Source: Lantana camara
Taxonomy: Eukaryota; Streptophyta; Magnoliopsida; Lamiales; Verbenaceae
Length of the DNA stretch: 64,000 bases
Reading direction: 5' to 3'
NCBI GenBank assembly: GCA_037501455.1
Contig: CM074862.1
Location: forward strand, 83,382,001 to 83,446,000
The position numbers and the translations under genes were made by a program. The notes under the pieces were generated by a model. The model did not search any database, had not been told where the DNA came from, and saw only the letters and a program-made list of their open reading frames with translations. Positions 5,422 through 61,383 of the stretch are shown here, piece by piece (positions within the stretch are counted from its first letter, which is position 1; each line of letters begins with the position of its first letter).

Positions 5422-5423
5422 CT

Positions 5424-13689: not shown

Positions 13690-14536
13690 GTATCGTATAG
13701 TGTAGAGAACTAATCTCAGTTTCGCTTATGAATCTTTTTCTGGGAATATACCTCTTGTAGCATAACTGCCCTAACGGCCTCCTGCCTCGGCGGGACTTAC
13801 AAGCTACTCCAAATATTCCCCATTACAGATTCAACAAGCTAATCAAGATACTCACTTACACAGAGATACTAGGGACCATAGCAGTAGACCATTCCATGGA
13901 AATTATCTAATTTTTGACGTACAGGATCCTCATAAGAGGCAAGTACAGAGCATACTCTTAAGATAATTAGGAGTATATCATAGTAGACCCTTTGAGGGTA
14001 TGGAAGAACTAAAAAAAAGGCTTTAAGCTAGAAAGGAAGACATCAGAGATAAGAAACTTGATTTTATTTCCAAACTCTTTACAAAGGACTCAAACTCTAA
14101 CCAAGTCTCTCACCCCAGTTTGAGTAAAATGAAAACCGAAGCCTCCCTTATATAGGCAAACTTCCGGATTTCAGACGCGGAATTAAAACTCAAATTATAT
14201 GGCGGGTACACTTCTGGGCCCCATCGCCTCATATAATTGAGATTCTTTTCCTCCACTAAGTGCAATAATGCACACTAAAAGCCAAAACATACTAGCCGAC
14301 AAAGGAAAGTGGTGTGCAGACCACTAACAAAAAGCAAGGGCTAAAGACAACTGGCCCTGACTCGGCAATCACAAAGCAGCACGCAATAAAGCAAGCCTAA
14401 ACAATGGCCGACACAACCAAAAGTAAAGATACAAAAGTCTTCATGGTAGGACCTACAAAGACTTTAAGGTATGACAAGGACTAAAGTGGTTAAAGAGATA
14501 GGAATCTCTTTATATCTTTTCATCTTTAAGTCTTTG
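13690..14536 (-). promoter_or_regulatory. Viral promoter, leader and 3' noncoding region (copy 2)
   Basis: Minus-strand TATATAA at 14154-14148 is the likely core promoter of the terminally redundant pregenomic RNA; AATAAA follows about 85 nt later. The leader downstream holds several short upstream ORFs. The 32-nt stem-loop is at 14465-14434. Just upstream of the TATA lie the conserved GGGCCC and TGCATTATTGCA palindromes. All are shared with the A and B copies. Confidence 0.75.
14434..14465 (-). other. Conserved 32-nt stem-loop (copy 2, type C)
   Basis: Identical outer and inner arms to those of the A and B copies; downstream of it all types share sequence, upstream of it they do not. Confidence 0.75.
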
Positions 14537-15247
14537 TCATAAGGTGTTCCCATTATCGTCAGTAAGGTTGAGTCCTGCTGGTGGGAAACTGGTTTGAGGA
14601 TCTCCTATTCCTCCTGAGTAGACTCTGTGGATGTTTCTCATGTACTTGGCTTGGTTATACTCAACCCAGACCCAAGTAGTCTGAGTTTTATCAAATAGAG
14701 CAAGATGATCGGGTGTCTGCTCTTTTATGGAAGTACATTTCTTGATGTCCTCCGTTCGGAAAGAAATGGGATTGAAGTAGGGATCTTCAAGAATGAAATA
14801 CAGAGGACTCCTGTGATGTAGAAGTAGATGCCTTCTACATGGTTGAAATCTACCATGTCTTTGTTGTGGGAAAGCACTGATGATAGAAATAAATATGCCT
14901 TTCCCTCTTCTGAATGCTTGGATAGCAGTCATAACAGTTATACCAAAGAAATCTGGTATGGGGAAGACTGCCTCATTGCAATAAAATGGTAGATAGAAAC
15001 CTTTGACCAATCCATTGTGATAAAGGTCTGCAGCAAAATTCATATCTAGAATTTTATGCAGGTCAATGATAGCCTGGAGAGGTTCAGTAGGAGGTTGGAA
15101 ACATCTTATTCCAGTGTCTGTATGAATGTTGTCCATAAGTTGCTGGAGTATCTCAGCTCTTTTTCTCTGGAAGATATCCTCTTGTAAATCCATGATATGA
15201 TCATAGATTTTCTGATCTGATAAGTTGAGGATATGTTGCCGAAGCTC
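14537..15247 (-). CDS. C-terminal half of module C (copy 2)
   Basis: Continues module C in frame after the TAG at 15250-15248. Contains the blocks shared with module B (ADLYHNGLVKGF, TAIQAFRRGKGIFIS, HLALFDKTQTTWVWVEY). No known domain recognised. Related to but clearly distinct from the B copies. Confidence 0.65.
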   Translation of the reverse strand, partial: ELRQHILNLSDQKIYDHIMDLQEDIFQRKRAEILQQLMDNIHTDTGIRCFQPPTEPLQAIIDLHKILDMNFAADLYHNGLVKGFYLPFYCNEAVFPIPDFFGITVMTAIQAFRRGKGIFISIISAFPQQRHGRFQPCRRHLLLHHRSPLYFILEDPYFNPISFRTEDIKKCTSIKEQTPDHLALFDKTQTTWVWVEYNQAKYMRNIHRVYSGGIGDPQTSFPPAGLNLTDDNGNTL

Positions 15248-15250
15248 CTA

Positions 15251-16222
15251 TGGTAGACCATTGAGAAAGTTATTCTTCTCAGTATTTGAAAAGAATAGTC
15301 TTTCCAATCTTTTCCCGAAAAGAATTGCTTTCTTTTCTGCCTCAAGTCGCTGGACTTTCCTTTGAAGTATCCTGATCTTTATGTTGGCAAGATTAAGATC
15401 TCTGGATAAGATCTCAGCTTTGTGCTTCCAAAACTGAACTGTTGAGGAAGAGAGATTATCGAGCTCAACACTGTGATGAGACTGAATAGGAGTGGATTCC
15501 ATCTTCTTCTTCTTGCTGAACTTTGAATCAGGAAATATGCTGTGGAGATTTCCTGGGAACTTGCCTTTTATAGACACATTCATCTGAAAAAAGTTATCAG
15601 CTTTATCAGGAATCTTTAAAGGTGGAGTGATTTGGCAGATTTGTTTCAAGTGTTTGACAGCTGTCGTCTGTTCCTTACCCCAAGGGGGGGCTTTCTTTCT
15701 GAGCATCTTGGAAAGCTGACTCGTGTATCTGGAGCATTGTGGAAGGAAGTCCTTGATATAATTGACTATTCCAAGAAATTGTTGAATTTCTTTTGTAGTC
15801 AGATTATCATCTGGGAACCTGAGAAGTTCCTGTGCAATGTGAGGACCTGGCTTGTATTTTCCTTCTGAAAATTTCATTCCAAGAAACTCGATGGAAGATT
15901 GTCCAATGAGACTCTTTTTCTCTGAGAGCATGATTCTATACTCTTGGACAATTTCATGGAACTGTGAGAGGAGTGCCCTGTGAGATTTCTCATTTTCAGA
16001 GAAGAGGAGGATATCGTCAATGTAGACTAAGGCACTATGCAGGATGGGTTCAAAGATACGGGTCATGGCTTTTTGGAATAGTGATGGAGCGGTCTTGAGA
16101 CCAAAAGGCATGACGGTCCATTGGTATTGGGCATTAGGTATACAAAATGCTGTTTTGTACCTATCTTTTGGATCAATACCGAGTTGCCAAAATCCTGCTT
16201 TGAGATCAAACTTAGAGAAGAT
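15251..16222 (-). CDS. RT catalytic part and start of module C (copy 2)
   Basis: In frame with the upstream fragment. Contains VMPFGLKTAPSLFQ and YIDD near 16030-16020, then the region shared by all copies up to LKIPDKA. From there module C begins: a short linker, KKKKMES at about 15515-15495 and a leucine-rich coiled coil. It ends at an in-frame TAG. Confidence 0.75.
15574..15582 (-). promoter_or_regulatory. Possible internal TATA box before module C ATG
   Basis: Minus-strand TATAAAAGG about 80 nt before the in-frame ATG at 15502. Module B has TATAAAAG at the homologous place. It could direct a shorter mRNA for the module, as the 19S promoter does in caulimoviruses, but this is inference. 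Confidence 0.4.
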
Positions 16223-19200
16223 TTAGGCTTGGGCCAAATGTGAGAAAAGCATTTGGGCTTGAGGTATTGGGAATTTATCATTTGCAAGGAAGTGATTAAG
16301 TGGCTTATAATCAATTACAAGCCTCTTTTTACCTCTGACTTGTTCAGCCCGTTTGTTGACATAGAATGCCTGGCACGCCCAGTTGGATGTGGTGGATTCA
16401 ATCAATCCGAGTTTCTCCAGTTGAGAACATTCAGCACAGCATCCTTTGAGTCTTGAGGCAAGATCATAGAATTCCTTGGATGCTTCTGTGAGTGCATAGA
16501 TCTTCTGAGTTGTAGTATAAGGTAGGAAGTACCTCTTACACTTGATTCCATTGGGGAGAATGGTGAGCTTTTGAGCTCTGTGATAAAGATCAAACCCAAT
16601 GAGAAGATCTTTTCCATGCAGCTTGCTTCCAATGACCTTCATGCAGATTATACAATCTGGGAAGAATTGTATCCCTATAGGATATCTTGTGATCAGCGAT
16701 GTTTTGAACTGTTGGCCATCTGCTGTTTGGAAGTACTCGTAGTGAGTTGTCCATGCTTCCTTAGGTAGGATGTCTGGATTCATCATGGACTTCATGGCTC
16801 CTGTATCCATAAATCCAATTGCTCTGATTGGTCTGTCATACTTCGAGGGAAGTATATGGATCTGGATATGTGGAGACGGGATAATCTCTTGAGTGATGCA
16901 TTCTGACTGAAGGATTGGTAGTACTTGATCATTGTCAGAATCAGAGGAGGTGGAACCATCATCTTGGACTGCAAAGATGGTTTCTTCTGTTTGCTCATCT
17001 TGTTCTGAGAACAAGGATTCAACCTCTGCATCGTTGAGATTGGTGTTTATGCTTTGTTGAACATGAGAAATCATTCTGGCTGATTTCTCTCGGTTGTGAG
17101 GACAATCTTTCGCAAAGTGTCCCTTCTTTTTGCAAGCAAAGCATCGATCTGTCCGCCTGTTTCTGAAAGGTTTACGTTTGAAGTATCTGAGACGTTTTCT
17201 CTTTTTCACCTTTCTTTCAGCAAGTCCTTTCTTTTGGCTCTTTGGATGAGAACAGTTGCATTCTTCTTTGGATTTGCATTTAATCTCAAGATGAGATTTC
17301 TTGCATGCCTTCTTTAGGACTGATTTGTTCTTCATTAAGGACTTGAACATTGTTTGCTGCTCACAGAGTTTGTCGATTGTGGTAATAGCAATCTGGTGGA
17401 TTTCTCCAAGAGAAAGCTGTGGAATTTCTCTTCTCGAGGCGGTTATGGCTCTGTGGAGTTCAGGCTGGATCTCTTGAGGAAGAGATGCAATGTACACGTG
17501 CTTGAGATTTGGATCATTATACCCATTAAGGGCATAATATAGCTCTGACATTCTTTTGAAATGGAAATCCAAAGCTGGCTTGTTCAGAGAACAACACTTC
17601 ATGGTGAAGTAGCTCTGCTGGATCATCTTCTGATAGAGAGTATGGTCACCTATGAACTCAAGGTGAAGTGCTAACAATGCCATGGGAGCGGTTGCTTGCA
17701 CATACTGGATCTGTCTGTATTCTCCCAATGATTGGAACCATTCACGTAATGTTCCTGTGAATCGTGACACAAACTCCCTTAAGACAGTAGGGAGATGAGG
17801 TTCTTTGATTCTTTGGAGATCGATCCATGCCGCAAAGGTTTGTAACCTTTCTTTCCTTTTTCCCACTGGAACATCATCAAATGTGAACCATGGGCCATTG
17901 GTTGGCTTAGATGGTCCAGAATCTGTGGTCTGGAACTCTGGAGGTTCTTCCATTATTGGTTCATCATATTCTTGAGGAGGTTGATCTTGATGGAATCCAA
18001 AGTTTGGATCATCTGCAATAAAGATCTGAGAGATGTCTGCAACTTTATCTTCACTGGCCTGGGAAAAGGATTGTTCTGAAGAGATTTCAGAATCATTGTG
18101 TTGGGAACTGGATCTTTCTGAAGAAGCTTCTGATTCAGAGTATTGAGAACTAGAATCATTTGAAGAGGCATCTTCATTTCTGATAGGCTCTTTTTGGATA
18201 TTATGATCAGAAGGATTTCTAATCATCAATGTAGAAGAATGTTCCCCAACTTTTTCTTTGTTTTTCTCCGTTGAAGAAGGAGAGGCTTTTGTTGGCTTAG
18301 GCCTTGGAGGAGGTGGCTCAAAAGGAATATAAGATACCATGAAAAATTGGCTTGATGGATCAGGATAAGATGGTGGGTCGTAGAGAGAAGGTGTAATGGG
18401 TGTAGGAAGAAAGGGAAGTGTAGAAGTAGAACTTCTCTTCCTGTCTTGCTCCATGTAAGCAAGATCCTTCTTGAGTTGTCTGATTTCTCTCTCTTTTTGG
18501 TCGAATTCTGGACCCATCCTTCTTAAGGAAATAAGCTGCCTGAGTTCTTTGTCAAGAAGCTCAATTCTGGCAACTACTCTTTTGTACATCTGATCAAGCT
18601 CCCGAGAGATTGTATTCACTTTCTGGTTGGTATCCTGAACATGGGATAAAACCTTATCAACCTTAGAGTCAAGTTGAATTAAGGCTTTATTCTGAGCTCT
18701 GGCATTTGTGGTTTGCCAGTTCAATACTTCTTCTCCTTGTGACAGAGAGGAAATTGTTCCTCCATCAGGGTTGACTGTGGTAGTCTGGACATAAGGTCGG
18801 ATTGCAACCTTATTTTCTGTACTTCTTTCTGCAGGTGGAATGCTAGTGCCCAAACTGTGTATCATCATGCAAGGTTGACATGGTATGGATGGCGGCGGAT
18901 TGTACTGTGGCAATTCCTGTCTGCAGCTCTTTGGCTTCTGCTGTTGCTGTTCTGCCTTAAGGATGGCTAACGCCTCATCATAACAAGACAAGGGTTGTGC
19001 GACTGTCGGTGGATCTGGATCTGGTTCTTTTGGTTTATAGGTCCTGCAAGGAAGACCTTTCTTTCTTGCTTTCCTTCGTCTTCTTCTCCGACTAGCCTCA
19101 CTTTCATCATCGTCGTCGGAGTCGGATTCTTCATCGCAAGAACATCCAGGGTCACACATAGATGGGTCAGCATCCCATACGAAGTGGCCATCCACTTTGT

Positions 19201-20251
19201 CTGTGTAAGACTCCTTTCCATCGGGGAAGAAGGAGTTTACTGGAAGGTACCCTAGGATTGGGTACTTTTCTCTGCTTGTCGGTATCACTGGCTGAATCAT
19301 CAGCTGTTTGAAGATTGGACTTGAAGAAGATGGAGTATCTTCTTGAGGTTGCTTGAAGATGGTTTTGGTTCTACCATCTGACAGTGTCTGGAATTCGTAG
19401 GTTGTAGATCTGACAGGCTCATGAGTCTGTTGGAGTGACTCATAGTTTGTGATCCACTCTATTGGCATTAACCTTTCCAGCTCCTTTCTGGGAATTTGTC
19501 TAGGAACCTGGACGATAGTTGGAGTATCGGATCCAGAGTTTGCTAGAATCATTAGAGCGTCTGGGGATCCAGATCCTTGAAGATCTAGACCATGGTTCTG
19601 CAACCTATAGACAAGCTGGTGATGTAAAGTAGCTGTTACTGCTGTAGCTACTTGCTCTGCTCCAGTGATCTGGACTTGAACTTTCAAAGCGTTGGGAAGA
19701 TTGGCATCTCCCAAGGACATGGCGAAATTGGGGAAGTAAGTCAAGACTGCACTTCCGCTGTTGAGAGTGGTTACCACTGTCCCGATAACTGCATCCTCAT
19801 ACTTCAGGTATCTGGTATCCAGCAAGGCCAGTCTGGCTGTTACTGGAAGACCTTTTCTCCCCTGGTAAGAGAGAACGAGACGAACGGCTCCGAAGTGGAG
19901 GTGTGTATATCCTTCCTGTCTCCAGGAAGATATGAACTCTGAAGGGATGGAGAGAGTAGCGTACTGCTCTCGCTTGGAATATTGTAGATCACACTTATCC
20001 AGTTTGGAGGACTGGACAAACTCTTTTGTTTGTGAGGGACGGTTGGAGGAGACCAAAGATCTGATTCCTCTAAGAGAACCTCTTTTTCTGTAGATATTGT
20101 AAGGACTGACTAAGGGTGGAACAGTTTGTTCTATAATAGCATTTTCAGGGATGGTGGAATATTCTACAAGGTTTTCTATTCTACTGGTTGAGTGACAAGG
20201 AAGGGAAAGAGAAGAGGAAACTGAAATCAACTGATCAGGTGATGTATCCAT
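16223..20251 (-). CDS. Movement protein to early RT, open frame (copy 2)
   Basis: 1342 codons without interruption: 30K-like movement protein, acidic/basic tract, one KAEQQQQ unit (copies 1, 3, 5 and 7 have two), coiled coil, coat protein core, CFACKKKGHFAKDC zinc knuckle, DTGAMKSM protease site and the beginning of the RT up to SHLAQA. The premature TAA lies inside the RT before the catalytic YIDD. Confidence 0.85.
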   Translation of the reverse strand: MDTSPDQLISVSSSLSLPCHSTSRIENLVEYSTIPENAIIEQTVPPLVSPYNIYRKRGSLRGIRSLVSSNRPSQTKEFVQSSKLDKCDLQYSKREQYATLSIPSEFISSWRQEGYTHLHFGAVRLVLSYQGRKGLPVTARLALLDTRYLKYEDAVIGTVVTTLNSGSAVLTYFPNFAMSLGDANLPNALKVQVQITGAEQVATAVTATLHHQLVYRLQNHGLDLQGSGSPDALMILANSGSDTPTIVQVPRQIPRKELERLMPIEWITNYESLQQTHEPVRSTTYEFQTLSDGRTKTIFKQPQEDTPSSSSPIFKQLMIQPVIPTSREKYPILGYLPVNSFFPDGKESYTDKVDGHFVWDADPSMCDPGCSCDEESDSDDDDESEASRRRRRRKARKKGLPCRTYKPKEPDPDPPTVAQPLSCYDEALAILKAEQQQQKPKSCRQELPQYNPPPSIPCQPCMMIHSLGTSIPPAERSTENKVAIRPYVQTTTVNPDGGTISSLSQGEEVLNWQTTNARAQNKALIQLDSKVDKVLSHVQDTNQKVNTISRELDQMYKRVVARIELLDKELRQLISLRRMGPEFDQKEREIRQLKKDLAYMEQDRKRSSTSTLPFLPTPITPSLYDPPSYPDPSSQFFMVSYIPFEPPPPRPKPTKASPSSTEKNKEKVGEHSSTLMIRNPSDHNIQKEPIRNEDASSNDSSSQYSESEASSERSSSQHNDSEISSEQSFSQASEDKVADISQIFIADDPNFGFHQDQPPQEYDEPIMEEPPEFQTTDSGPSKPTNGPWFTFDDVPVGKRKERLQTFAAWIDLQRIKEPHLPTVLREFVSRFTGTLREWFQSLGEYRQIQYVQATAPMALLALHLEFIGDHTLYQKMIQQSYFTMKCCSLNKPALDFHFKRMSELYYALNGYNDPNLKHVYIASLPQEIQPELHRAITASRREIPQLSLGEIHQIAITTIDKLCEQQTMFKSLMKNKSVLKKACKKSHLEIKCKSKEECNCSHPKSQKKGLAERKVKKRKRLRYFKRKPFRNRRTDRCFACKKKGHFAKDCPHNREKSARMISHVQQSINTNLNDAEVESLFSEQDEQTEETIFAVQDDGSTSSDSDNDQVLPILQSECITQEIIPSPHIQIHILPSKYDRPIRAIGFMDTGAMKSMMNPDILPKEAWTTHYEYFQTADGQQFKTSLITRYPIGIQFFPDCIICMKVIGSKLHGKDLLIGFDLYHRAQKLTILPNGIKCKRYFLPYTTTQKIYALTEASKEFYDLASRLKGCCAECSQLEKLGLIESTTSNWACQAFYVNKRAEQVRGKKRLVIDYKPLNHFLANDKFPIPQAQMLFSHLAQA

Positions 20252-20315
20252 AGCTTGGAAGGTTTTCTAGCTCTTCTTCTACCAACTCGCAGGAATCTAT
20301 CACGATATACTCACT

Positions 20316-20323
20316 TGATACCA
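20316..20323 (-). other. Viral primer-binding site (tRNA-iMet-like)
   Basis: Minus-strand TGGTATCA followed by AGTGAG. Only eight bases agree with the usual caulimovirid TGGTATCAGAGC. It defines position 1 of the viral map. It is present at the copy 2/3 junction, partly deleted at copy 1/2, and the outer ends of copies 4 and 7 fall at or within about 15 nt of it. Confidence 0.7.
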
Positions 20324-21253
20324 TAGCACGCCGGGAGCCCAGGTATCTCATGTATCGTATAGTGTAGAGAACTAATCTCAGTTTCGCTTATGAATCTTTT
20401 TCTGGGAATATACCTCTTATAGCATAACTGCCCTAACGGCCTCCTGCCTCGGCGGGACTTACAAGCTACTCCAAATATTCCCCATTACAGATTCAACAAG
20501 CTACTCAAGATACTCACTTACACAGAGATACTAGGGACCGTAGCAATAGACCATTCCATGGAAATTATCTAATTTCTGATGTACAGGATCCTCATAAGAG
20601 GCAAGTACAGAGCATACTCTTAAGATAATTAGGAGTATATCATAGTAGACCCTTTGAGGGTATGGAAGAACTAAAAAAGGCTTTAAGCTAGAAAGGAAGA
20701 CATCAGAGATAAGAAACTTGATTTTATTTCCAAACTCTTTACAAAGGACTCAAACTCTAACCAAGTCTCCAACCCAGTCTGTAACCCAGTCTGAGTAAAA
20801 TGAAAACCGAAGCCTCCCTTATATAGGCAAACTTCCGGATTTCAGACGCGGAATTAAAACTCAAATTATATGGCGGGTACACTTCTGGGCCCCATCGCCT
20901 CATATAATTGAGATTCTTTTCCTCCACTAAGTGCAATAATGCACACTAAAAGCCAAAACATACTGGCCGACAAAGGAAAGTGGTGCGCAGACCACTAACA
21001 AAAAGCAAGGGCTAAAGACAACTGGCCCTGACTCGGCAATCACATAACAGCACGCAATAAAGCAAGCCTAAACAATGGCCGACACAACATAAAGTAAAGA
21101 TACAAAAGTCTTCATGGTAGGACCTACAAAGACTTTTAAGGCTGAGGATGACCTAAATGGCTGACAAAGACATTAGAGAGATAAGATTCTCTTTATGTCA
21201 TTTTCTTCTTTAGTCATCTTCATTATTTGCAGCAAGCTTCCTCAATACTCTTT
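20324..21253 (-). promoter_or_regulatory. Viral promoter, leader and 3' noncoding region (copy 3)
   Basis: TATATAA at 20825-20819 on the minus strand, AATAAA about 85 nt further, stem-loop at 21136-21105. Complete up to the primer site, so it could in principle drive copy 2. Between TATA and poly(A) signal a CAGACTGGGTT-like unit is present twice (once in copies 2, 6 and 7). Confidence 0.75.
21105..21136 (-). other. Conserved 32-nt stem-loop (copy 3, type B)
   Basis: Same AAAGTCTT / AAGACTTT outer and GTAGG / CCTAC inner arms as the other copies, about 120 nt behind the stop codon. Confidence 0.75.
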
Positions 21254-24200
21254 TCAGAGTGAATTCCATTCTTCATCAGGAAGATAACTAGCTCTTGGAT
21301 CCCCGATCTCATTGGCAAAGATATGATGGATGCTTCGCATATACATATCTTGGCAGTGCTCGACCCAAACATAAGTAGTCTGAGTTTTGTCGAACAAGGC
21401 AAGATGTTCAGGGGTTTGTTCTCTGATAGATGTGCATTTCTGGATATTGTTTATCCCAAAAGAGAAGGGATTTATGTTGGAACTTTCAAAATCGAAATAC
21501 ACTGGTTTCTTATGACTCAAGAGCAAGTGTCTTTGACATGGTTGGTGATCCCCATTATGCTGCTGAGGGAAGTTGCTTAGGACTGAAATGAATACAGGCA
21601 ATCCTCTTCGGAAGGATTGGATTGCTGCAATAGTAGTCGGACCCAAGAACTCTGGTATTGGGAAGACTACTTTGTTCTGGTAGAACGGAAGGGAGAATCC
21701 CTTGACTAACCCATTGTGGTATAGATCTGCAATGAAATCCAAGTCTTGAACCATATGGAGGTCAATGATAACCCTTAACGGTTCATTCTGTGGTTGGAAA
21801 CACTTAAACCCTGTGGGAGTATGGATATTATCCATAATTTGATTGAGTGTTTCAACTTTCTTTCTGTGGAAGATATACTCCTGTAATTCCATGATATTAT
21901 CATAGAATCTTTGGTCAGAAATATTGAGAATTTTCTGTTGGAGCTCAGGAGGGAGACCTGTAAGGAAATTCTTTTTCTCATAGTAGAGAAATAGTTTTTC
22001 CAAACGGTAACCAAGAAGAATTAATCTTCTTTCTTCTTCCAGCTTCTGAACCTTCTTCTGGAGAAGCTCGATCTTTAGATGTGAGAGGTCAAGATTTTGG
22101 CTCATAAGATCAATCTGCTGCTGCAGGAGATGAACAGTAGAGGAGGTGATGGCTTTGAGCTTTTCACCAAAAAAGATGGTGGAGGAGGACTCCATTTTCT
22201 TTTTCTTGCTGGAATGTTTGCTATAATGTTTATCATAGCAAGTGACTTTTATAGGCGCCTTTGTCTGGAGAAAGTAATCACCTCTGTCTGGAATCTTTAA
22301 AGGTGAAGGAGTCTGGCAGATTTGTTTCAAGTGTTTGACAGCTGCCGTCTGTTTCTTACCCCAAGGGGGGGCTTTCTTTCTGAGCATCTTGGAAAGCTGA
22401 CTCGTGTATCTGGAGCATTGTGGAAGGAAGTCCTTGATATAATTGACTATTCCAAGAAACTGTTGAATTTCTTTTGTAGTCAGATTATCTTCTGGGAACC
22501 TGAGAAGTTCCTGTGCAATGTGAGGACCTGGCTTGTATTTTCCTTCTGAAAATTCCATTCCAAGAAACTTGATGGAAGATTGTCCAATGAGACTCTTTTT
22601 CTCTGAGAGCATGATTCCATACTCTTGGACAATTTCATGAAACTGAGAGAGGAGTGCCCTGTGAGATTTCTCATTTTCAGAGAAGAGGAGGATATCGTCA
22701 ATGTAGACTAAGGCACTATGCAGGATGGGTTCAAAGATACGGGTCATGGCTTTTTGGAATAGTGATGGAGCGGTCTTGAGACCAAAAGGCATGACGGTCC
22801 ATTGGTATTGGGCATTAGGTATACAAAATGCTGTTTTGTACCTATCTTTTGGATCAATACCGAGTTGCCAAAATCCTGCTTTGAGATCAAACTTAGAGAA
22901 GATTTGGGCTTGGGCCAAATGTGAGAAAAGCATTTGGGCTTGAGGTATTGGGAATTTATCATTTGCAAGGAAGTGATTAAGTGGCTTATAATCAATTACA
23001 AGCCTCTTTTTACCTCTGACTTGTTCAGCCCGTTTGTTGACATAGAATGCCTGGCACGCCCAGTTGGATGTGGTGGATTCAATCAATCCGAGTTTCTCCA
23101 GTTGAGAACATTCAGCACAACATCCTTTGAGTCTTGAGGCAAGATCATAGAATTCCTTGGATGCTTCTGTGAGTGCATAGATCTTCTGAGTTGTAGTATA
23201 AGGTAGGAAGTACCTCTTACACTTGATTCCATTGGGGAGAATGGTGAGCTTTTGAGCTCTGTGATAAAGATCAAACCCAATGAGAAGATCTTTTCCATGC
23301 AGCTTGCTTCCAATGACCTTCATCCAGATTATACAATCTGGGAAGAATTGTATCCCTATAGGATATCTTGTGATCATCGATGTTTTGAACTGTTGGCCAT
23401 CTGCTGCTTGGAAGTACTCGTAGTGAGTTGTCCATGCTTCCTTAGGTAGGATGTCTGGATTCATCATGGACTTCATGGCTCCTGTATCCAAAAATCCGAT
23501 TGCTTTGATTGGTCTGTCATACTTCGAGGGAAGTATATGGATCTGGATATGTGGAGACGGGATAATCTCTTGAGTGATGCATTCTGACTGAAGGATTGGT
23601 AGTACTTGATCATTGTCAGAATCAGAGGAGGTGGAACCATCATCTTGGACTGTAAAGATGGTTTCTTCTGTTTGCTCATCTTGTTCTGAGAACAAGGATT
23701 CAACCTCTGCATCGTTGAGATTGGTGTTTATGCTTTGTTGAACATGAGAAATCATTCTGGCTGATTTCTCTCGGTTGTGAGGACAATCTTTAGCAAAGTG
23801 TCCCTTCTTTTTGCAAGCAAAGCATCGACCAGTCCGCCTGTTTCTGAAAGGTTTACGCCTGAAGTATCTGAGACGTTTTCTTCTTTTCTCCTTTCTTTCA
23901 GCAAGTCCTTTCTTTTGGCTCTTTGGATGAGAACAATTGCATTCTTCTTTGGTTTTGCATTTAATCTCAAGATGAGATTTCTTGCATGCCTTCTTTAGGA
24001 CTGATTTGTTCTTCATTAAGGACTTGAACATTGTTTGCTGCTCACAGAGTTTGTCGATTGTGGTAATAGCAATCTGGTGGATTTTTCCAAGAGAAAGCTG
24101 TGGAATTTCTCTTCTCGAGGCGGTTATGGCTCTGTGGAGTTCAGGCTGGATCTCTTGAGGAAGAGATGCAATGTACACGTGCTTGAGATTTGGATCATTA

Positions 24201-26182: not shown

Positions 26183-26235
26183 CGTGATAGATTCCTGCGA
26201 GTTGGTAGAAGAAGAGCTAGAAAACCTTCCAAGCT

Positions 26236-37932: not shown

Positions 37933-37934
37933 AG

Positions 37935-44200: not shown

Positions 44201-44204
44201 CGGG

Positions 44205-44216
44205 CAAGTGGGAGAT
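44205..44216 (+). other. Copia polypurine tract
   Basis: AAGTGGGAGA directly before the 3' LTR; primer site for plus-strand synthesis. Confidence 0.8.
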
Positions 44217-49214: not shown

Positions 49215-49465
49215 TCAGAGTGAATTCCATTCTTCATCAGGAAGATAACTAGCTCTTGGATCCCCGATCTCATTGGCAAAGATATGATGGATGCTTCGCA
49301 TATACATATCTTGGCAGTGCTCGACCCAAACATAAGTAGTCTGAGTTTTGTCGAACAAGGCAAGATGTTCAGGGGTTTGTTCTCTGATAGATGTGCATTT
49401 CTGGATATTGTTTATCCCAAAAGAGAAGGGATTTATGTTGGAACTTTCAAAATCGAAATGCACTG

Positions 49466-51296: not shown

Positions 51297-51990
51297 GGAA
51301 GAATTGTATCCCTATAGGATATCTTGTGATCAGCGATGTTTTGAACTGTTGGCCATCTGCTGCTTGGAAGTACTCGTAGTGAGTTGTCCATGTTGCCTTA
51401 GGTAGGATGTCTGGATTCATCATGGACTTCATGGCTCCTGTATCCAAAAATCCGATTGCTTTGATTGGTCTGTCATACTTCGAGGGAAGTATATGGATCT
51501 GGATATGTGGAGACGGGAAAATCTCTTGAGTGATGCATTCTGACTGGAGGATCGGTAGTACTTGATCATTGTCAGAATCAGAGGAGGTGGAACCATCATC
51601 TTGGACTGCAAAGATGGTTTCTTCTGTTTGCCCATCTTGTTCTGAGAACAAGGATTCAACCTCTGCATCATTGAGATTGGTGTTTATGCTTTGTTGGACA
51701 TGAGAAATCATTCTGGCTGATTTCTCTCGGTTGTGAGGACAATCTTTCGCAAAGTGTCCCTTCTTTTTGCAAGCAAAGCATCGATCTGTCCGCCTGTTTC
51801 TGAAAGGTTTACGTTTGAAGTATCTGAGACGTTTTCTCTTTTTCACCTTTCTTTCAGCAAGTCCTTTCTTTTGGCTCTTTGGATGAGAACAGTTGCATTC
51901 TTCTTTGGATTTGCATTTAATCTCAAGATGAGATTTCTTGCATGCCTTCTTTAGGACTGATTTGTTCTTCATTAAGGACTTGAACATTGT
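51297..51990 (-). CDS. Zinc knuckle - protease fragment (copy 6)
   Basis: CFACKKKGHFAKDC near 51785-51745 and DTGAMKSM near 51440; ends at a one-base deletion before the RT. Confidence 0.8.
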
Positions 51991-51993
51991 TTA

Positions 51994-53682: not shown

Positions 53683-53685
53683 TCA

Positions 53686-54668
53686 AGGAAGATCTTTCTT
53701 TCTTGCTTTCCTTCGTCTTCTTCTCCGACTAGCTTCACTTTCATCATCGTCGTCGGAGTCGGATTCTTCATCGCAAGAACATCCAGGGTCACACATGGAT
53801 GGGTCAGCATCCCATATGAAGTGGCCATAAACTTTGTCTGTGTAAGACTCCTTTCCATCGGGGAAGAAGGAGTTTATTGGAAGGTACCCTAGGATTGGGT
53901 ACGTTTCTCTGCTTGTCGGTATCACTGGCTGAATCATCAGCTGTTTGAATATAGGACTTGAAGAAGATGGAGTATCTTCTTGTGGTTGCTTGAAGATGGT
54001 TTTGGTTCTACCATCTGACAGTGTCTGGAATTCGTAGGTTGTAGATCTGCCAGGCTCATGAGTCTGTTGGAGTGACTCATAGTTTGTGATCCACTCTGTT
54101 GGCATTAACCTTTCCAGCTCCTTTCTGGGAATTAGTCTAGGAACCTGGACGATAGTTGGAGTATCGGATCCAGAGTTTGCTAGAATCATTAGAGCGTCTG
54201 GGGATCCAGATCCTTGAAGATCTAGACCATGGTTCTGCAACCTGTAGACAAGCTGGTGATGTAAAGTAGTTGTTACTGCTGTAGCTACTTGCTCTGCTCC
54301 AGTGATCTGGACTTGAACTTTCGAAGCGTTGGGAAGATTGGCATCTCCCAAGGACATGGCGAAATTGGGGAAGTAAGTCAAGACTGCACTTCCGCTGTTG
54401 AGAGTGGTTACCACTGTCCCGATAACTGCATCCTCATACTTCAGGTATCTGGTATCCAGCAAGGCCAGTCTGGCTGTTACTGGAAGACCTTTTCTCCCCT
54501 GGTAAGAGAGAACGAGACGAACGGCTCCGAAGTAGAGGTGTGTATATCCTTCCTGTCTCCAGGAAGATATGAACTCTGAAGGGATGGAGAGAGTAACGTA
54601 CTGCTCTCGCTTAGAATATTGTAGATCACACTTATCCAGTTTGGAGGACTGGACAAACTCTTTTGTTT
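53686..54668 (-). CDS. Movement protein fragment (copy 6)
   Basis: Movement-protein core and the acidic/basic tract. The frame continues across the palindrome centre into antisense of copy 7 and thereby gains an artificial start at 54786. Confidence 0.75.
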
Positions 54669-56263
54669 CCTCCAACCGTCCCTCACAAACAAAAGAGTTT
54701 GTCCAGTCCTCCAAACTGGATAAGTGTGATCTACAATATTCCAAGCGAGAGCAGTACGTTACTCTCTCCATCCCTTCAGAGTTCATATCTTCCTGGAGAC
54801 AGGAAGGATATACACACCTCCACTTCGGAGCCGTTCGTCTCGTTCTCTCTTACCAGGGGAGAAAAGGTCTTCCAGTAACAGCCAGACTGGCCTTGCTGGA
54901 TACCAGATACCTGAAGTATGAGGATGCAGTTATCGGGACAGTGGTAACCACTCTCAACAGCGGAAGTGCAGTCTTGACTTACTTCCCCAATTTCGCCATG
55001 TCCTTGGGAGATGCCAATCTTCCCAACGCTTTGAAAGTTCAAGTCCAGATCACTGGAGCAGAGCAAGTAGCTACAACAGTAACAGCTACTTTACATCACC
55101 AGCTTGTCTACAGGTTGCAGAACCATGGTCTAGATCTTCAAGGATCTGGATCCCCAGACGCTCTAATGATTCTAGCAAACTCTGGATCCGATACTCCAAC
55201 TATCGTCCAGGTTCCTAGACAAATTCCCAGAAAGGAGCTGGAAAGGTTAATGCCAACAGAGTGGATCACAAACTATGAGTCACTCCAACAGACTCATGAG
55301 CCTATCAGATCTACAACCTATGAATTCCAGACACTGTCAGATGGTAGAACCAAAACCATCTTCAAGCAACCTCAAGAAGATACTCCATCTTCTTCAAGTC
55401 CAATCTTCAAACAGCTGATGATTCAGCCAGTGATACCGACAAGCAGAGAAACGTACCCAATCCTAGGGTACCTTCCAGTAAACTCCTTCTTCCCCGATGG
55501 AAAGGAGTCTTACACAGACAAAGTTGATGGCCACTTCATATGGGATGCTGACCCATCCATGTGTGACCCTGGATGTTCTTGCAATGAAGAATCCGACTCC
55601 GACGACGATGATGAAAGTGAAGCTAGTCGGAGAAGAAGACGAAGGAAAGCAAGAAAGAAAGATCTTCCTTGCAGGACCTATAAACCCAAAGAACCAGATC
55701 CAGATCCACCGACAGTCGCACAACCCTTGTCTTGTTATGATGAGGCGTTAGCCATCCTTAAGGCAGAACAGCAACAGCAGAAGGCAGAACAGCAACAGCA
55801 AAAACCAAAGAGCTGTAGGCAAGAAGTGCCTCCATGCCTTCCACCACCGGTGATACCATGCCAACCTTGCATGATGATACATAGTTTGGGCACCAGTTTT
55901 CCACCTGCAGAAAGAAGTACAGAAAATAAGGTTGCAATCCGACCTTATGTCCAGACTACCACAGTCAACCCTGATGGAGGAACAACTTCCTCTCTGTCAC
56001 AAGGAGAAGAAGTATTGAACTGGCAAACCACAAATGCCAGAGCTCAGAATAAAGCCTTAATTCAACTTGACTCTAAGGTTGATAAGGTTTTATCCCATGT
56101 TCAGGATACCAACCAGAAAGTGAATACAATCTCTCGAGAGCTTGAACAGATGTACAAAAGAGTAGTTGCCAGAATTGAGCTTCTTGACAAAGAACTCAGG
56201 CAGCTTATTTCCTTAAGAAGGATGGGTCCAGAATTCGACCAGAAAGAGAGAGAAATCAGATAA
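54669..56263 (+). CDS. Movement protein to coiled coil, 5'-truncated (copy 7)
   Basis: Viral from SSNRPSQTKEF; an open frame reaching back to 54569 runs through antisense of copy 6 and is chimeric. Contains movement-protein core, acidic tract with CSCNEESDSDDDD (others CSCDEE), basic tract, two KAEQQQQ units and coiled coil. Confidence 0.85.
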
Positions 56264-59200
56264 CTCAAGAAGGATCTTGCTTACATGGAGCAAGACAGGA
56301 AGAGAAGTTCTACTTCTACACTTCCCTTTCTTCCTACACCCATTACACCTTCTCTCTACGACCCACCATCTTATCCTAATCCATCAAGCCAATTTTTCAT
56401 GGTATCTGATATTCCTTTTGAGCCACCTCCTCCAAGGCCTAAGCCAATAAAAGCCTCTCCTTCTTCAAAGGAGAAAAACAAAGAAAAAGTTGGGGAACAT
56501 TCTTCTACATTGATGATTAGAAACCTTTCTGATCATAATATCCAACAAGAGCCTATGAGAAATGAAGATGCCTCTTCAAATGATTCTAGTTCTCAATACT
56601 CTGAATCAGAAGCTTCTTCAGAAAGATGCAGTTCCCAACACAGTGATTCTGAAATCTCTTCAGAACAATCCTTTTCCCAGTCCAGTGAAGATAAGGTTGC
56701 AGACATCTCTCAGATCTTTATGGCAGATGATCCAAACTTTGGATTCCATCAAGATCAACCTCCTCAAGAATATGATGAACCATTAATGGAAGAACCTCCA
56801 GAGTTCCAGAGCACAGATTCTGGACCATCTAAGCCAACCAATGGCCCATGGTTCACATTTGATGATGTTCCAGTGGGAAAAAGGAAAGAAAGGTTACAAA
56901 CCTTTGCCGCATGGATCGATCTCCAAAGAATCAAAGAGCCTCATCTCCCTACTGTCTTAAGGGAGTTTGTGTCACGATTCACAGGAACATTACGTGAATG
57001 GTTCCAATCATTGGGAGAATACAGACAGATCCAGTATGTGCAAGCAAGCGCTCCCATGGCATTGTTAGCACTTCACCTTGAGTTCATAGGTGACCATACT
57101 CTCTATCAGAAGATGATCCAGCAGAGCTACTTCGCCATGAAGTGTTGTTCTCTGAACAAGCCAGATTTGGATTTCCATTTCAAAAGAATGTCAGAGCTAT
57201 ATTATGCCCTTAATGGGTATAATGATCCAAATCTCAAGCACGTGTACATTGCATCTCTTCCTCAAGAGATCCAGCCTGAGCTCCACAGATCTATAACCGC
57301 CTCGAGAAGAGAAATTCCACAGCTTTCTCTTGGAGAAATCCACCAGATTGCTATTTCCACAATAGACAAACTCTGTGAGCAACAAACAATGTTCAAGTCC
57401 TTAATGAAGAACAAATCAGTCCTGAAGAGGGCATGCAAGAAATCTCATCTTGAGATTAAATGCGAATCCAAAGAAGAATGCAATTGTTCTCATCCAAAGA
57501 GTCAAAAGAAAGGACTTGCTGAAAGAAAGGAGAAAAAGAGAAAACGTCTCAGATACTTCAGACGTAAACCTTTCAGAAACAGGCGGACTGATCGATGCTT
57601 TGCTTGCAAAAAGAAGGGACACTTTGCGAAAGATTATCCTCACAACCGAGAGAAATCAGCCAGAATGATTTCTCATGTCCAACAAAGCATAAACACCAAT
57701 CTCAACGATGCAGAGGTTGAATCCTTGTTCTCAGAACAAGATGAGCAAACAGAAGAAACCATCTTTGCAGTCCAAGATGATGGTTCCACCTCCTCTGATT
57801 CTGACAATGATCAAGTTCTACCAATCCTCCAGTCAGAATGCATCACTCAAGAAATTATCCCGTCTCCACATATCCAGATCCATATACTTCCCTCGAAGTA
57901 TGACAGACCAATCAAAGCAATCGGATTTTTGGATACAGGAGCCATGAAGTCCATGATGAATCCAGACATCCTACCTAAGGAAGCATGGACAACTCACTAC
58001 GAGTACTTCCAAGCAGCAGATGGCCAACAGTTCAAAACATCGCTGATCACAAAATATCCTATAGGGATACAATTCTTCCCAGATTGCATAATCTGGATGA
58101 AGGTCATTGGAAGCAAGCTGCATGGAAAAGATCTTCTCATTGGGTTTGATCTTTATCACAGAGCTCAAAAGCTCACCATTCTCCCCAATGGAATTAAGTA
58201 TAAGAGGTACTTCCTACCTTATACTACAACTCAGAAGATCTATGCACTCACAGAAGCATCCAAGGAATTCTATGATCTTGCCTCAAGACTCAAAGGATGT
58301 TGTGCTAAATCTCATTCGGAATTCTCTCATCCACATCCCTTGTGGAAGAATTCTGAATTCTTCATTCAACTCCCTTTCAAAAAGAATGAAGACATAAACC
58401 CTACGAAAGCTACACATCCAGGAATGACTCCTGATGATGAAAAGCTTGCAAGAGCTGAATGTTCTCAACTGGAGAAACTCGGATTGATTGAATCCACCAC
58501 ATCCAACTGGGCGTGCCAGGCATTCTATGTCAACAAACGGACTGAACAAGTCAGAGGTAAAAAGAGGCTTGTAATTGATTATAAGCCACTTAATCACTTC
58601 CTTGCAGATGATAAATTCCCAATACCTCAAGCCCAAATGCTTTTCTCACATTTGGCCCAAGCCCAAATCTTCTCTAAGTTTGATCTCAAAGCAGGATTTT
58701 GGCAACTCGGTATTGATCCAAAAGATAGGTACAAAACAGCATTTTGTATACCTAATGCCCAATACCAATGGACCGTCATGCCTTTTGGTCTCAAGACCGC
58801 TCCATCACTATTCCAAAAAGCCATGACCCGTATCTTTGAACCCATCCTGCATAGTGCCTTAGTCTACATTGACGATATTCTCCTCTTCTCTGAAAATGAG
58901 AAATCTCACAGGGCACTCCTCTCTCAGTTTCATGGAATTGTCCAAAAGTATGGAATCATGCTCTCAGAAAGAAAGAGTCTCATTGGACAATCCTCCATCA
59001 AGTTTCTTGGAATGGATTTTTCAGAAGGAAAATACAAGCCAGGTCCTCACATTGCACAGGAACTTCTTAGGTTCCCAGAAGATAATCTGACTACAAAAGA
59101 AATTCAACAGTTTCTTGGAATAGTCAATTATATCAAAGACTTCCTTCCACAATGCTCCAGATACACGAGTCAGCTTTCCAAGATGCTCAGAAAGAAAGCC

Positions 59201-60526
59201 CCCCCTTGGGGTAAGGAACAGACGGCAGCTGTCAAACATTTGAAACAAATCTGCCAGACCCCTCCACCTTTAAAAATTCCAGATAAAGGTGAAAGAATCC
59301 TTCAGACAGATGCCAGTGATGAATACTGGGGAGCAATTCTGCTTGAAAAAGCAAATGGGAAAGAATATTACTGTGGACATGCAAATGGACAATTCAGTCC
59401 AGCTGAAAAGCATTATCACACAGTATACAAAGAAATTCTAGCCGTCAAATATGGAATCAAGAAATTTGAATTCCATCTCATTGGTCATCATTTCTCAGTT
59501 GTCATGGACAACTCATCTTTTCCAAAGATACTAGAATTCAAAAATAAGGGTCTTCCCGAATCCCAATTGTTGAGATTGAAAGACTGGTTTGCAAAATACC
59601 AGTTCTCGGTAAAGCATATAAAAGGAGATCACAACCTCATCCCAGATCTCTTATCCAGACCAAAGCCAATTCATCTCATCTCATCAGCCAAACCAATTCC
59701 CCTGATATACATGATGGCTTCTTCTTCCCAAATTCCTGTTATAACTGCTGAACCAGTTCTCCCCGAATTTCCTCCGACATCATTCCCATTATCCAATCCT
59801 GATGAAATCAAAATCTTTGCCAGAAATCATATCTTTTACTACCAGGCAAAATTTCTCCTTGCTTTAGGACTCTTTCTCGATTCAGGAAAGTTTTACCCTG
59901 ATAATCCTTTCCTTCCTGTTTTCACCTTGATCGACAGAGTTACTCTTCCTGCCGAAGGATACTGGTATTTCTGGTGCCTGGGTATTTCTAATTGGTTTGC
60001 CTTAGAAGTTGATCCAAAGATTCTACTCAACTCTATCAGGACCAATGCTTACAATTCCAATCTTACAAAGTTTCTTTTTGGTTATTGGACCAGAAAAGAA
60101 TGGATCAAGCAACTGATAGACATTGAGAAAAAGAATAGGTATATGGAAAAACCTCTAACTGTCATAATCATGCATAGGCCATATTTCTTTTCACAAGAAA
60201 AACTTCTTCCTCTTGCCTATTGTTATGATTTTACCACTACCGATGGAGGTGTCGGCAAACATCCGGGTAAAGCTACTGAGCTATACAACCATCTCTGTGC
60301 CAAGAACCATGTCTCAACTCTTGGGCATATCTCCCCATTTCATAAGAAGTCCTACTGCACCTCCAATGTCTTTTTAACAGAAGACTTCTCTGATGGAGAT
60401 CCTTATGCCAGATCTATGATACAGAGTCTCAGAGAAACAACCTTTCAAAGAGCACCAATTCCAGGAAAAGATAAGGTAGAAGACTCATACCCTGCAGGAT
60501 ACAGCCAAAACCCATGGGAATACTAG
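56264..60526 (+). CDS. Coat protein - protease - RT - RNase H - module A (copy 7)
   Basis: Open for about 1420 codons; first ATG at 56285 is internal. Coat core, altered zinc knuckle, protease, complete pre-RT segment, RT with YIDD, RNase H (TDASDEYWGA, E in YKEILAVKYG, VMDNSSF, HIKGDHNLIPDLLS), then about 270 residues of unknown function starting MASSSQIP at 59714. The A-linked variants GIVQKYG, SERKSLIG and GMDFSEG in the RT are shared with copy 1 only. Confidence 0.88.
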   Translation, partial: LKKDLAYMEQDRKRSSTSTLPFLPTPITPSLYDPPSYPNPSSQFFMVSDIPFEPPPPRPKPIKASPSSKEKNKEKVGEHSSTLMIRNLSDHNIQQEPMRNEDASSNDSSSQYSESEASSERCSSQHSDSEISSEQSFSQSSEDKVADISQIFMADDPNFGFHQDQPPQEYDEPLMEEPPEFQSTDSGPSKPTNGPWFTFDDVPVGKRKERLQTFAAWIDLQRIKEPHLPTVLREFVSRFTGTLREWFQSLGEYRQIQYVQASAPMALLALHLEFIGDHTLYQKMIQQSYFAMKCCSLNKPDLDFHFKRMSELYYALNGYNDPNLKHVYIASLPQEIQPELHRSITASRREIPQLSLGEIHQIAISTIDKLCEQQTMFKSLMKNKSVLKRACKKSHLEIKCESKEECNCSHPKSQKKGLAERKEKKRKRLRYFRRKPFRNRRTDRCFACKKKGHFAKDYPHNREKSARMISHVQQSINTNLNDAEVESLFSEQDEQTEETIFAVQDDGSTSSDSDNDQVLPILQSECITQEIIPSPHIQIHILPSKYDRPIKAIGFLDTGAMKSMMNPDILPKEAWTTHYEYFQAADGQQFKTSLITKYPIGIQFFPDCIIWMKVIGSKLHGKDLLIGFDLYHRAQKLTILPNGIKYKRYFLPYTTTQKIYALTEASKEFYDLASRLKGCCAKSHSEFSHPHPLWKNSEFFIQLPFKKNEDINPTKATHPGMTPDDEKLARAECSQLEKLGLIESTTSNWACQAFYVNKRTEQVRGKKRLVIDYKPLNHFLADDKFPIPQAQMLFSHLAQAQIFSKFDLKAGFWQLGIDPKDRYKTAFCIPNAQYQWTVMPFGLKTAPSLFQKAMTRIFEPILHSALVYIDDILLFSENEKSHRALLSQFHGIVQKYGIMLSERKSLIGQSSIKFLGMDFSEGKYKPGPHIAQELLRFPEDNLTTKEIQQFLGIVNYIKDFLPQCSRYTSQLSKMLRKKAPPWGKEQTAAVKHLKQICQTPPPLKIPDKGERILQTDASDEYWGAILLEKANGKEYYCGHANGQFSPAEKHYHTVYKEILAVKYGIKKFEFHLIGHHFSVVMDNSSFPKILEFKNKGLPESQLLRLKDWFAKYQFSVKHIKGDHNLIPDLLSRPKPIHLISSAKPIPLIYMMASSSQIPVITAEPVLPEFPPTSFPLSNPDEIKIFARNHIFYYQAKFLLALGLFLDSGKFYPDNPFLPVFTLIDRVTLPAEGYWYFWCLGISNWFALEVDPKILLNSIRTNAYNSNLTKFLFGYWTRKEWIKQLIDIEKKNRYMEKPLTVIIMHRPYFFSQEKLLPLAYCYDFTTTDGGVGKHPGKATELYNHLCAKNHVSTLGHISPFHKKSYCTSNVFLTEDFSDGDPYARSMIQSLRETTFQRAPIPGKDKVEDSYPAGYSQNPWEY
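59617..59625 (+). promoter_or_regulatory. Possible internal TATA box before module A C-terminal domain
   Basis: TATAAAAGG 97 nt before ATG at 59714 (ATGATGGCTTC context). It lies within conserved RNase H codons (HIKGD), so chance is quite possible; of interest only because B and C carry the same motif before their module ATG. Confidence 0.3.
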
Positions 60527-61383
60527 CTTGAAAATGACTTAAAGAGAATCCTATCTCTTTTAGGTCATTGTCACCATTAAAGTCTTTGTAGGTCCTACCA
60601 TGAAGACTTTTGTATCTTTACTTTTGGTTGTGTCGGCCATTGTTTAGGCTTGCTTTATTGCGTGCTGCTTTGTGATTGCCGAGTCAGGGCCAGTTGTCTT
60701 TAGCCCTTGCTTTTTGTTAGTGGTCTGCGCACCACTTTCCTTTGTCGGCCAGTATGTTTTGGCTTTTAGTGTGCATTATTGCACTTAGTGGAGGAAAAGA
60801 ATCTCAATTATATGAGGCGATGGGGCCCAGAAGTGTACCCGCCATATAATTTGAGTTTTAATTCCGCGTCTGAAATCCGGAAGTTTGCCTATATAAGGGA
60901 GGCTTCGGTTTTCATTTTACTCAGACTGGGTTGGAGACTTGGTTAGAGTTTGAGTCCTTTGTAAAGAGTTTGGAAATAAAATCAAGTTTCTTATCTCTGA
61001 TGTCTTCCTTTCTAGCTTAAAGCCTTTTTTCTAGTTCTTCCATACCCTCAAAGGGTCTACTATGATATACTCCTAATTATTTTAAGAGTATGCTCTGTAC
61101 TTGCCTCTTATGAGGATCCTGTACATCAGAAATTAGATAATTTCCATGGAATGGTCTATTGCTACGGTCCCTAGTATCTCTGTGTAAGTGAGTATCTTGA
61201 GTAGCTTGTTGAATCTGTAATGGGGAATATTTGGAGTAGCTTGTAAGTCCCGCCGAGGCAGGAGGCCGTTAGGGCAGTTATGCTACAAGAGGTATATTCC
61301 CAGAAAAAGATTCATAAGCGAAACTGAGATTAGTTCTCTACACTATACGATACATGAGATACCTGGGCTCCCGGCGTGCTATG
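60527..61383 (+). promoter_or_regulatory. Viral 3' noncoding, promoter and uORF-rich leader (copy 7)
   Basis: Stem-loop 60579-60610; TATATAA 60890-60896; AATAAA 60975-60980. Behind the presumed RNA start the leader holds about eight short ORFs of 4 to 16 codons (for example ATG at 61001, 61063, 61090, 61148), as in other Caulimoviridae that use ribosome shunting. No gene follows; copy and cluster end at the primer-site position. Confidence 0.75.
60579..60610 (+). other. Conserved 32-nt stem-loop (copy 7, type A)
   Basis: AAAGTCTT/AAGACTTT outer arms, GTAGG/CCTAC inner arms with a one-base loop; 52 nt behind the type A stop. Confidence 0.75.

Follow-up and report, generated by a model that had tools for sequence, protein, structure and literature searches.

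The genome of Lantana camara (1.27 Gb) contains, in a stretch of 64,000 nucleotides (nt) at C8:83382001-83446000 (hereafter, the window), seven endogenous caulimovirid units, in both orientations, that share one backbone and differ in the module that follows the reverse transcriptase (RT). Units of type A carry ribonuclease H (RNase H) and a C-terminal domain in this position, whereas units of types B and C carry a different protein, denoted X, and lack a recognizable RNase H. We interpret these units as remnants of a multi-component caulimovirid whose genome kinds appear to have replicated alongside one another, the X genomes, which lack RNase H, relying on this enzyme provided in trans. To this reading we assign a probability of roughly three in four. 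A preliminary description of this DNA had proposed three components. Several component types are indeed present, but a division into two functional kinds, A and X, describes them better, X having two ancient forms.

Units and backbone

In the window, type A is represented by copy 1 (7370..13686, minus strand) and copy 7 (54660..61383, plus strand, ending 3' at the margin of the primer-binding site), and type C by copy 2 (13690..20306, minus strand). Type B comprises copy 3 (20322..26181, minus strand), copy 4 (26181..32709, plus strand, with a deletion of about 270 nt near 27200), copy 6 (48463..54668, minus strand) and copy 5, a single unit interrupted by a Ty1/copia element into a 3' part (32710..36002) and a 5' part (46157..48463), both on the minus strand. 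Copy 1 is truncated at 7370 by another copia element, and its tail picks up in the left flank (L009:6839-7266). The array extends leftwards about 30 kb past the window, with one further A and three further B modules, so that the whole locus, flank included, holds 3 A, 7 B and 1 C. Several copies bear stops, frameshifts and deletions.

Outside the module, the backbone (movement protein (MP), CCHC protein, RT and intergenic region) is mostly 96-99% identical between copies in 250-column windows, with a few windows of lower identity near insertions or deletions (indels). Repeats of several kilobases at this level of identity exclude chance likeness. The seven copies with a common backbone, and the modules where the preliminary description had placed them, were thus recovered, except that it started the array at 13690, which leaves copy 1 outside. 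The shared intergenic region (60530..61383 in copy 7, plus strand) is 94.2-99.8% identical in the 15 pairs of six window copies; intergenic identity above 90% between components, as in a bipartite florendovirus pair, is therefore found here. A 150-nt in-frame indel (in copy 1 it lies near 9636-9778, and its two ends overlap by 7 nt) cuts across the types, being absent in copies 2 (C), 3 and 6 (B) and present in copies 1 and 7 (A) and 4 and 5 (B).

The polyprotein starts with a 30K-type movement protein (PF01107; E 9e-16 to 2e-15 in copies 7, 2 and 4). The coat region contains a CCHC zinc knuckle (PF00098; E 3e-5 in copy 3 and E 0.008, under the cut-off, in copy 7), and an aspartic protease (PR; PF00077) is matched weakly, under the cut-off (E 0.018 in copy 3, E 0.065 in copy 7). 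Among solved structures, the best sequence match of the A piece is PDB entry 8r0s (E 8e-86), named cauliflower mosaic virus RT in the structure-match listing, followed by Ty3 (2e-60). The RT motif YIDD is present in 9 of 9 A rows and 27 of 31 X rows. No integrase was detected in Pfam scans of pieces from copies 1, 2, 3, 4 and 7, which did not span every copy in full.

RNase H is recognized in both window A copies (PF17919/PF17917, E 6e-22 to 2e-18) and was not found by Pfam scan in copy 3 (B) or in the C copy; the modules of copies 4-6 are 99% identical to that of copy 3. The distribution given in the preliminary description, RNase H in A and none in B or C, accordingly stands for the copies scanned. 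The RNase H of copy 7 has four acidic residues, which we take to be the catalytic ones, and the C-terminal domain lies in frame with it. A structural model of RNase H plus the C-terminal domain had a mean pLDDT of 52, and its top Foldseek matches were RT-RNase H structures. With the recognized caulimovirid domains present, the protease weakly so, component A looks self-sufficient.

The X protein

The module follows LKIPD, is either A or B/C, and ends at a single point at which all copies rejoin. Module A measures 1237 nt in both copy 1 (7580..8816, minus strand, one in-frame stop) and copy 7 (59293..60529, plus strand). The four B modules of the window, 1068-1072 nt long and 99.2-99.7% identical to one another, occupy 21206..22277 in copy 3 (minus strand; X frame open and fused to RT), 30767..31838 in copy 4 (plus strand), 33302..34373 in copy 5 (minus strand; one in-frame stop) and 49167..50234 in copy 6 (minus strand; four bases shorter than copy 3, frame broken). 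Module C of copy 2 (14523..15596, minus strand; 1074 nt, one in-frame stop) encodes the C form of X. B and C can be aligned end to end, with 56% amino acid (aa) and 64.6% nucleotide identity, a nonsynonymous distance of 0.31, saturated synonymous sites and 104/76/182 differences at the three codon positions. Because the homology covers the whole module, C is a form of B, and the two are one predicted protein family, X, in two old clades. The preliminary description had correctly seen C as a divergent relative of B; its treatment of the two as separate modules does not hold, given the similarity over the full length.

The C-terminal ~180 residues of X are strongly conserved among 16 sequences, and the N-terminal part may form a long helix, coiled-coil by inspection, in a low-confidence model; the structure predicted from the four window rows had a mean pLDDT of 39, and that model was not used. 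RT and X share a single open frame in several lineages, the longest of 842 aa. Protein searches retrieved no match for P0003 at E <= 0.001; with the X portion of the PR-RT-X frame as query there was none even at E <= 10. These searches demand shared 5-residue words and bounded lengths, and plant annotations frequently mask repeats of viral origin, so that the absence of X elsewhere is weak evidence. No Pfam family matched modules B and C over the cut-off, the best being Rtt106_N over a short stretch (E 0.0024; 4 of 16 members at E <= 1); no PDB entry matched X below E 0.26; and the viral contigs matched neither X nor the A piece. No homology was detected between X and the C-terminal domain of A (hhalign probability 0.1%), and X is absent from the 120 listed best of 1466 proteins matching A (best E 0.78).

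Inspection by eye covered 21 RT-module junctions, of which 8 were A and 13 X. The switch point is identical in A, B, C, a C-like lineage denoted C', and deeper X, and in all 13 X junctions the module starts at one common point after RT. In 11 of these 13, the opening codons are like those of RNase H strand 1 (FLQTKAP in B and FFQMNVS in C, for ILQTDAS in A), a resemblance that two C' modules lack. The Asp of ILQTDAS, presumably the first catalytic Asp of RNase H, is gone in these 11 modules. It is plausible that X arose by one ancestral replacement immediately before this residue. A copy on C7 (L053; 7754800-7759300, minus strand) consists of RT, nearly the whole B module (90%) and, immediately after it, module A from nt 23 (97%); it is a recombinant B+A copy, in which RNase H lacks the first strand.

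Distribution of component types on the RT tree

Outside the module, 24 differences between A and B are fixed, of which 14 fall at the RT end (58879..59286, plus strand), the sole stretch upstream of the module rich in such sites, 8 shortly downstream of the module at 60539-60578, and 2 elsewhere. Type-linked variants thus reach the RT, as had been noted at the outset, yet only its last ~0.4 kb, and within the window linkage to type is confined to the module and the flanks next to it. Other informative sites in the window support conflicting groupings of copies across types.

A tree was built from the 5' part of RT (425 columns, 38 rows). It excludes ten loci whose RT stretch is not near-complete (L034, L035, L037, L038, L041, L042, L045, L046, L050 and L052), as well as L030 and L054, in which this part is too short. 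The window array forms one clade (7 B, 3 A and 1 C; support 91/93). Among the four same-locus A-X pairs outside the window, three are sister rows, namely A and B at C1:18.7 Mb (100/99) and at C5:39.9 Mb (100/99), and A' and B' at C3:78.9 Mb (93/84). The fourth, A and B of C10:70.0 Mb, lies in a five-row polytomy within a clade of A, B and C drawn from C2, C5 and C10 (84/96). A' and C' are adjacent at C1:126.7 Mb. Label A requires 8 changes on this tree against a shuffled mean of 7.5, and labels A, B and C cluster no more strongly than in shuffles. Mean 5' RT identities within the window lineage are 96.8% for A-B, 96.1% for A-A, 97.0% for B-B and 96.5% for C-C. We also considered backbone trees that follow type; this arrangement was rejected, with a single A clade worse by a log-likelihood (lnL) difference of 218 (p-AU 4.9e-5).

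As judged from these alignments, the 5' RT follows strain, not component type. Of the separate trees called for in the preliminary description, that of the X modules has two deep clades, and that of the shared 5' RT is ordered by strain. Its view of the types as lineages rather than random deletions is borne out in that genomes with each module replicated, and fails for the shared part, which is mixed in the 5' RT and forms no type lineages. Recombination is observed for RT; for the intergenic region, only similarity is observed. That two virus lineages each had A, B and C is no more than suggested.

Copy ends and joins at the primer site

In pararetroviruses, minus-strand synthesis begins at a tRNA primer site. 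An exact tRNA-iMet primer site is present in the left flank (L012:6961-6976), and the site also occurs at B, C and C' loci; a scan of the window allowing up to 3 mismatches gave chance level only (44 hits versus 52 expected), and the site is lost at both window tandem joins inspected. The join of copy 2 (C) to copy 1 (A), at 13677..13690 on the minus strand, is a microhomology deletion spanning the primer-binding site, and that of copy 3 (B) to copy 2 (C), at 20307..20330 on the minus strand, is another one, beginning within this site. The difference between the two joins disfavours tandem duplication. Beside the tandem joins, copies meet head to head and tail to tail at 26181, 32709/32710 and 54660-54668.

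Across loci, 26 copy ends map to a 721-nt reference stretch, and 12 of them lie within a single 16-nt interval at this site, where 0.6 would be expected; these comprise 2 A, 1 B, 2 C, 4 C' and 3 deeper X copies. Copies running through the site were not scored as ends, and L037/L038, being one copy, was scored once. The pile-up makes these ends look like termini of reverse-transcribed DNA, and the joins indicate that reverse-transcribed molecules of unlike types were ligated together. X genomes, though without RNase H, were thus reverse-transcribed, a process for which RNase H had to come from elsewhere, and we infer A to be its obvious source.

Occurrence in the genome and selection

The DNA of each module served as a query against the whole genome. 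This gave 119 candidates for C, 130 for B and 118 for A, of which the 40 best in each case received a score; module counts are therefore lower bounds (40 scored of 101-134 candidates per query). Within this limit, the search for all copies that the preliminary description had suggested found A, B and C on several chromosomes, with B-type copies 89-100% and A-type copies 92-100% identical, and C-type copies at 95-97% identity in at least four further places (five matches). Matches lying within 30 or 60 kb of each other were linked into clusters. Of 44 C-query matches, 15 were retained in the C list; 27 of those dropped were below 80% identity and were left to the B lists (most, not all, are there), and 2 were pieces beside kept ones. 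The cluster list also leaves out repeat matches between two B searches and one short piece. At least 75 clusters resulted, of which 36 contain A, 46 B-like and 11 C-like modules. A and X occur together in 15 of the 75 (12 A+B and 4 A+C, one of these both), with 0.05-0.18 expected under uniform placement, and B-like and C-like modules occur together in 3. The origin of B and C from one chimeric locus, raised earlier as a possible refutation, is contradicted by this spread of B-like and C-like modules; a derivation of the modules from unrelated host insertions is contradicted by the common junction in 13 X loci and the purifying selection described below. At C5:13.42-13.43 Mb, C' and deep B-like modules (L035 and L042) lie a few kb apart, making another mixed locus.

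The X-module tree consists of two deep clades, C with C' (support 1.0) and B with its relatives (0.95). The ratio of nonsynonymous to synonymous substitution rates (dN/dS) of X measured against B is 0.09-0.23 in 20 of 29 modules, the remaining 9 being saturated; against C, computable for 28 of 29, it is 0.10-0.25 for other lineages and 0.16-0.37 within C. In X genomes, RT has dN/dS of 0.09-0.38 over 12 X pairs, the values 0.24 and 0.38 coming from two close C pairs and the rest falling within 0.09-0.25. For part of the C-terminal domain of A, dN/dS is 0.07. The low values for X modules and RT across lineages point to X genomes that long replicated under selection, and, by these estimates, X is under purifying selection and a real, long-maintained gene. 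Within the window, backbone dN/dS is 0.13-0.73 over 27 row pairs, 22 of them at 0.2-0.5. Variants found in at least two copies fall at codon positions 14/13/35 and singletons at 28/23/30, that is, 35 of 62 versus 30 of 81 at third positions (Fisher p 0.028). This third-position excess, together with the backbone dN/dS, suggests that part of the diversity is older than the integration.

Ty1/copia insertions and the right edge of the array

The Ty1/copia element within copy 5 (36003..46156, plus strand) has a pair of long terminal repeats (LTRs) that are 98.9% identical. The second element, in copy 1, runs from window positions 1-7371 on to L009:9216, and its LTR pair is 99.7% identical. Both have exact tRNA-Met primer sites and are young, and the array predates both insertions. 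To the right of the array, at about 61777-61934, lies an inverted repeat, by eye perhaps a small inverted-repeat element.

A multi-component model and its alternatives

In the model we favor, component A encodes MP, CCHC protein, a weakly recognized protease and RT, followed by RNase H with the C-terminal domain, and component X encodes the same proteins through the RT end, followed by the coiled-coil protein fused to RT in place of RNase H and the C-terminal domain. A common intergenic promoter would drive transcription of all types, and their RNAs would bear one tRNA-iMet primer site. Reverse transcription of X genomes would rely on A RNase H in trans. Template switching and recombination among co-replicating genomes would homogenize promoter, MP, coat protein (CP), protease and most of RT within each strain, whereas the non-homologous modules would remain distinct during recombination. 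Unlike molecules with primer-site ends would then ligate and integrate as mixed arrays. The modules and their junction, the selection acting on X and RT, the mixing of backbones between types, the co-location of types, the primer-site ends and the unlike joins are observed; trans supply of RNase H, co-packaging and any benefit of X are the parts of this model that we infer.

Several observations weigh against the model. All the evidence for it comes from integrated DNA. The 16-nt interval was picked after the ends had been seen, and some ends at ~82% identity could represent alignment drop-off next to the primer site. The 425-column 5' RT tree leaves 15 of 35 inner branches open, and C' has no clear strain partner: C'-C' identity is 92.8%, not above that of C' to A' or B'. 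The lack of a strain partner is what makes A, B and C in two lineages no more than a suggestion. The five labels taken jointly are clustered (17 changes versus a shuffled mean of 22.7; 0 of 200 shuffles as low), because of the deep X lineages (3 changes versus 7.4). No A-plus-X pair was found in 60 of the 75 clusters, absences that are weak with only the best 40 matches per query scored, and uniform insertion is an oversimple null for co-location. The A module of L009 compared with that of copy 7 gives a dN/dS of 1.08, that is, no constraint, on very few changes; the codon-position test is only marginal; and gene conversion within the array could add to the uniformity of the backbone.

Because A looks autonomous, X may be a mere dependent. 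X genomes would then be satellites or parasites that take RNase H, and with it the C-terminal domain, from A and return nothing, with X aiding their own spread. This alternative, to which we give somewhat less than an even chance, fits the recognized caulimovirid domains of A (the protease being weak) and the 21 of 36 A clusters without a scored X neighbour among the best 40 matches per query, and it has a parallel in rice, where eRTBVL2 has been interpreted as perhaps living as a commensal on a partner that is autonomous (PMC5491270). It sits less easily with the conservation of X across saturated synonymous divergence, with X being about as common as A (119-130 versus 118 first-look candidates), and with the retention of RT by X genomes although A could provide it, even if all these points are compatible with satellite status too. 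A different question is whether each virus had two components only, with C being the X component of another lineage, acquired by recombination, and B and C thus alleles. The chances here appear balanced: B and C share homology, C' with its more diverged backbones falls in the C clade, and B-like and C-like modules co-occur in just 3 of the 75 clusters; yet B and C sit end to end in one array, two 5' RT clades (91/93 and 84/96) each contain A, B and C, and the 95-97% identical copies at four further genome places (five matches) argue that C was established in the virus.

The opposite possibility, a three-part virus in which A, B and C were separate, jointly needed and kept across at least two virus lineages, we consider unlikely. 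Under it, the RNase H-less RT-X of B and C might be partner subunits of the RNase H-bearing A RT, by analogy with HIV RT, in which a p51 subunit stands beside p66; the division of labour would then lie within the polymerase itself. We find it quite improbable that the host amplified a single chimeric founder and that gene conversion and unequal exchange within integrated arrays made the backbones uniform: the arrays are dense repeats and the closest relatives of copies are those of their own array, but the two unlike microhomology joins at the primer site, primer-site ends at many loci, a strain clade that crosses three chromosomes (C2, C5 and C10) and dN/dS far below 1 across loci in both module and RT all speak against it. 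Finally, the array is repetitive, and several copies are damaged by stops, frameshifts and deletions, as would be expected if the types were assembly artefacts or products of random decay; with module classes that recur on several chromosomes and long open RT-X frames (up to 842 aa) with constrained codons, this is hardly credible.

Relationship to known divided pararetroviruses

Component A resembles endogenous proteins of Citrus, Hibiscus, Taraxacum and others that unite RT, RNase H and a C-terminal domain, which at best cover 90-98% of the 708-aa query (120 best of 1466 matches) and which we assume to be petuvirus/florendovirus-like. Bipartite florendoviruses include VvinBV, VvinDV, OsatBV and a Sorghum bicolor virus (Geering et al. 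2014, PMC4241990). Like these, the Lantana virus has two genome kinds with a near-identical intergenic region and MP and unequal coding parts, mixed ('compound') insertions, a tRNA-Met start site and high copy number. In the florendoviruses, component A is missing all or part of CP, in some cases with further losses, whereas component B is without RT and the start of RH1 and has a C-terminal extension homologous to ORF2; the ORF2 protein has a separate frame in most, with a homologous domain inside ORF1 in AtrichBV (PMC4241990). That partition, B without RT and A without CP, differs from what we find: B and C keep RT, and copy 7 keeps the zinc-knuckle region. Compared with the florendovirus pair as there described, Lantana A looks complete; X retains RT, drops RNase H and everything after it, is not detectably related to the C-terminal domain of A and has two ancient forms; and the uniform part spans MP, CP, protease and most of RT.

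The non-autonomous rice pararetroviruses eRTBVL2, ePVCVL and ePVCVL2 (Chen et al. 2017, PMC5491270) are similar in that an essential enzyme part is swapped for a protein of unknown function (with an SFKTE domain in rice), intergenic regions of partners are kept alike by recombination, and one breakpoint shows microhomology. They differ in having lost either the entire RT/RH or CP, and in a uniformity confined to the intergenic region, plus MP in one pair. The criterion of Chen et al. combines an absent essential domain, many copies and regulatory sequence shared with a partner; all these are found in the X genomes, with recombination seen in RT. The motif SFKTE occurs in 0 of 16 X sequences, and SFRTE in one window C sequence but not in its close relatives. 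Florendovirus-like bipartite elements of sugar beet are reported as a further endogenous case in the review PMC10377300. In the sections accessible of PMC4241990, PMC9719215, PMC10377300, PMC5766536 and PMC5491270, neither this partition nor the X family, its two forms or the reach of the uniform backbone is mentioned, and no description of the A/X layout was found in the literature searched, which mostly excludes subscription journals. The principle has precedents in the bipartite florendoviruses and the rice non-autonomous pararetroviruses, whereas the A/X partition differs.

Implications

Multi-part genomes are known in many plant viruses. In Ortervirales, according to the review PMC10377300, there are no multipartite examples except the endogenous florendoviruses that it describes. 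The array described here is real and old. In Lantana camara, both kinds occur in many copies in one genome, with a partition unlike the known cases: RNase H and all behind it were lost, and RT was kept. To this are added a conserved X family that had no relative in the searches made, and physical links joining reverse-transcribed molecules of unlike kinds. How a divided retroelement genome arises and is maintained thereby becomes testable by comparison.

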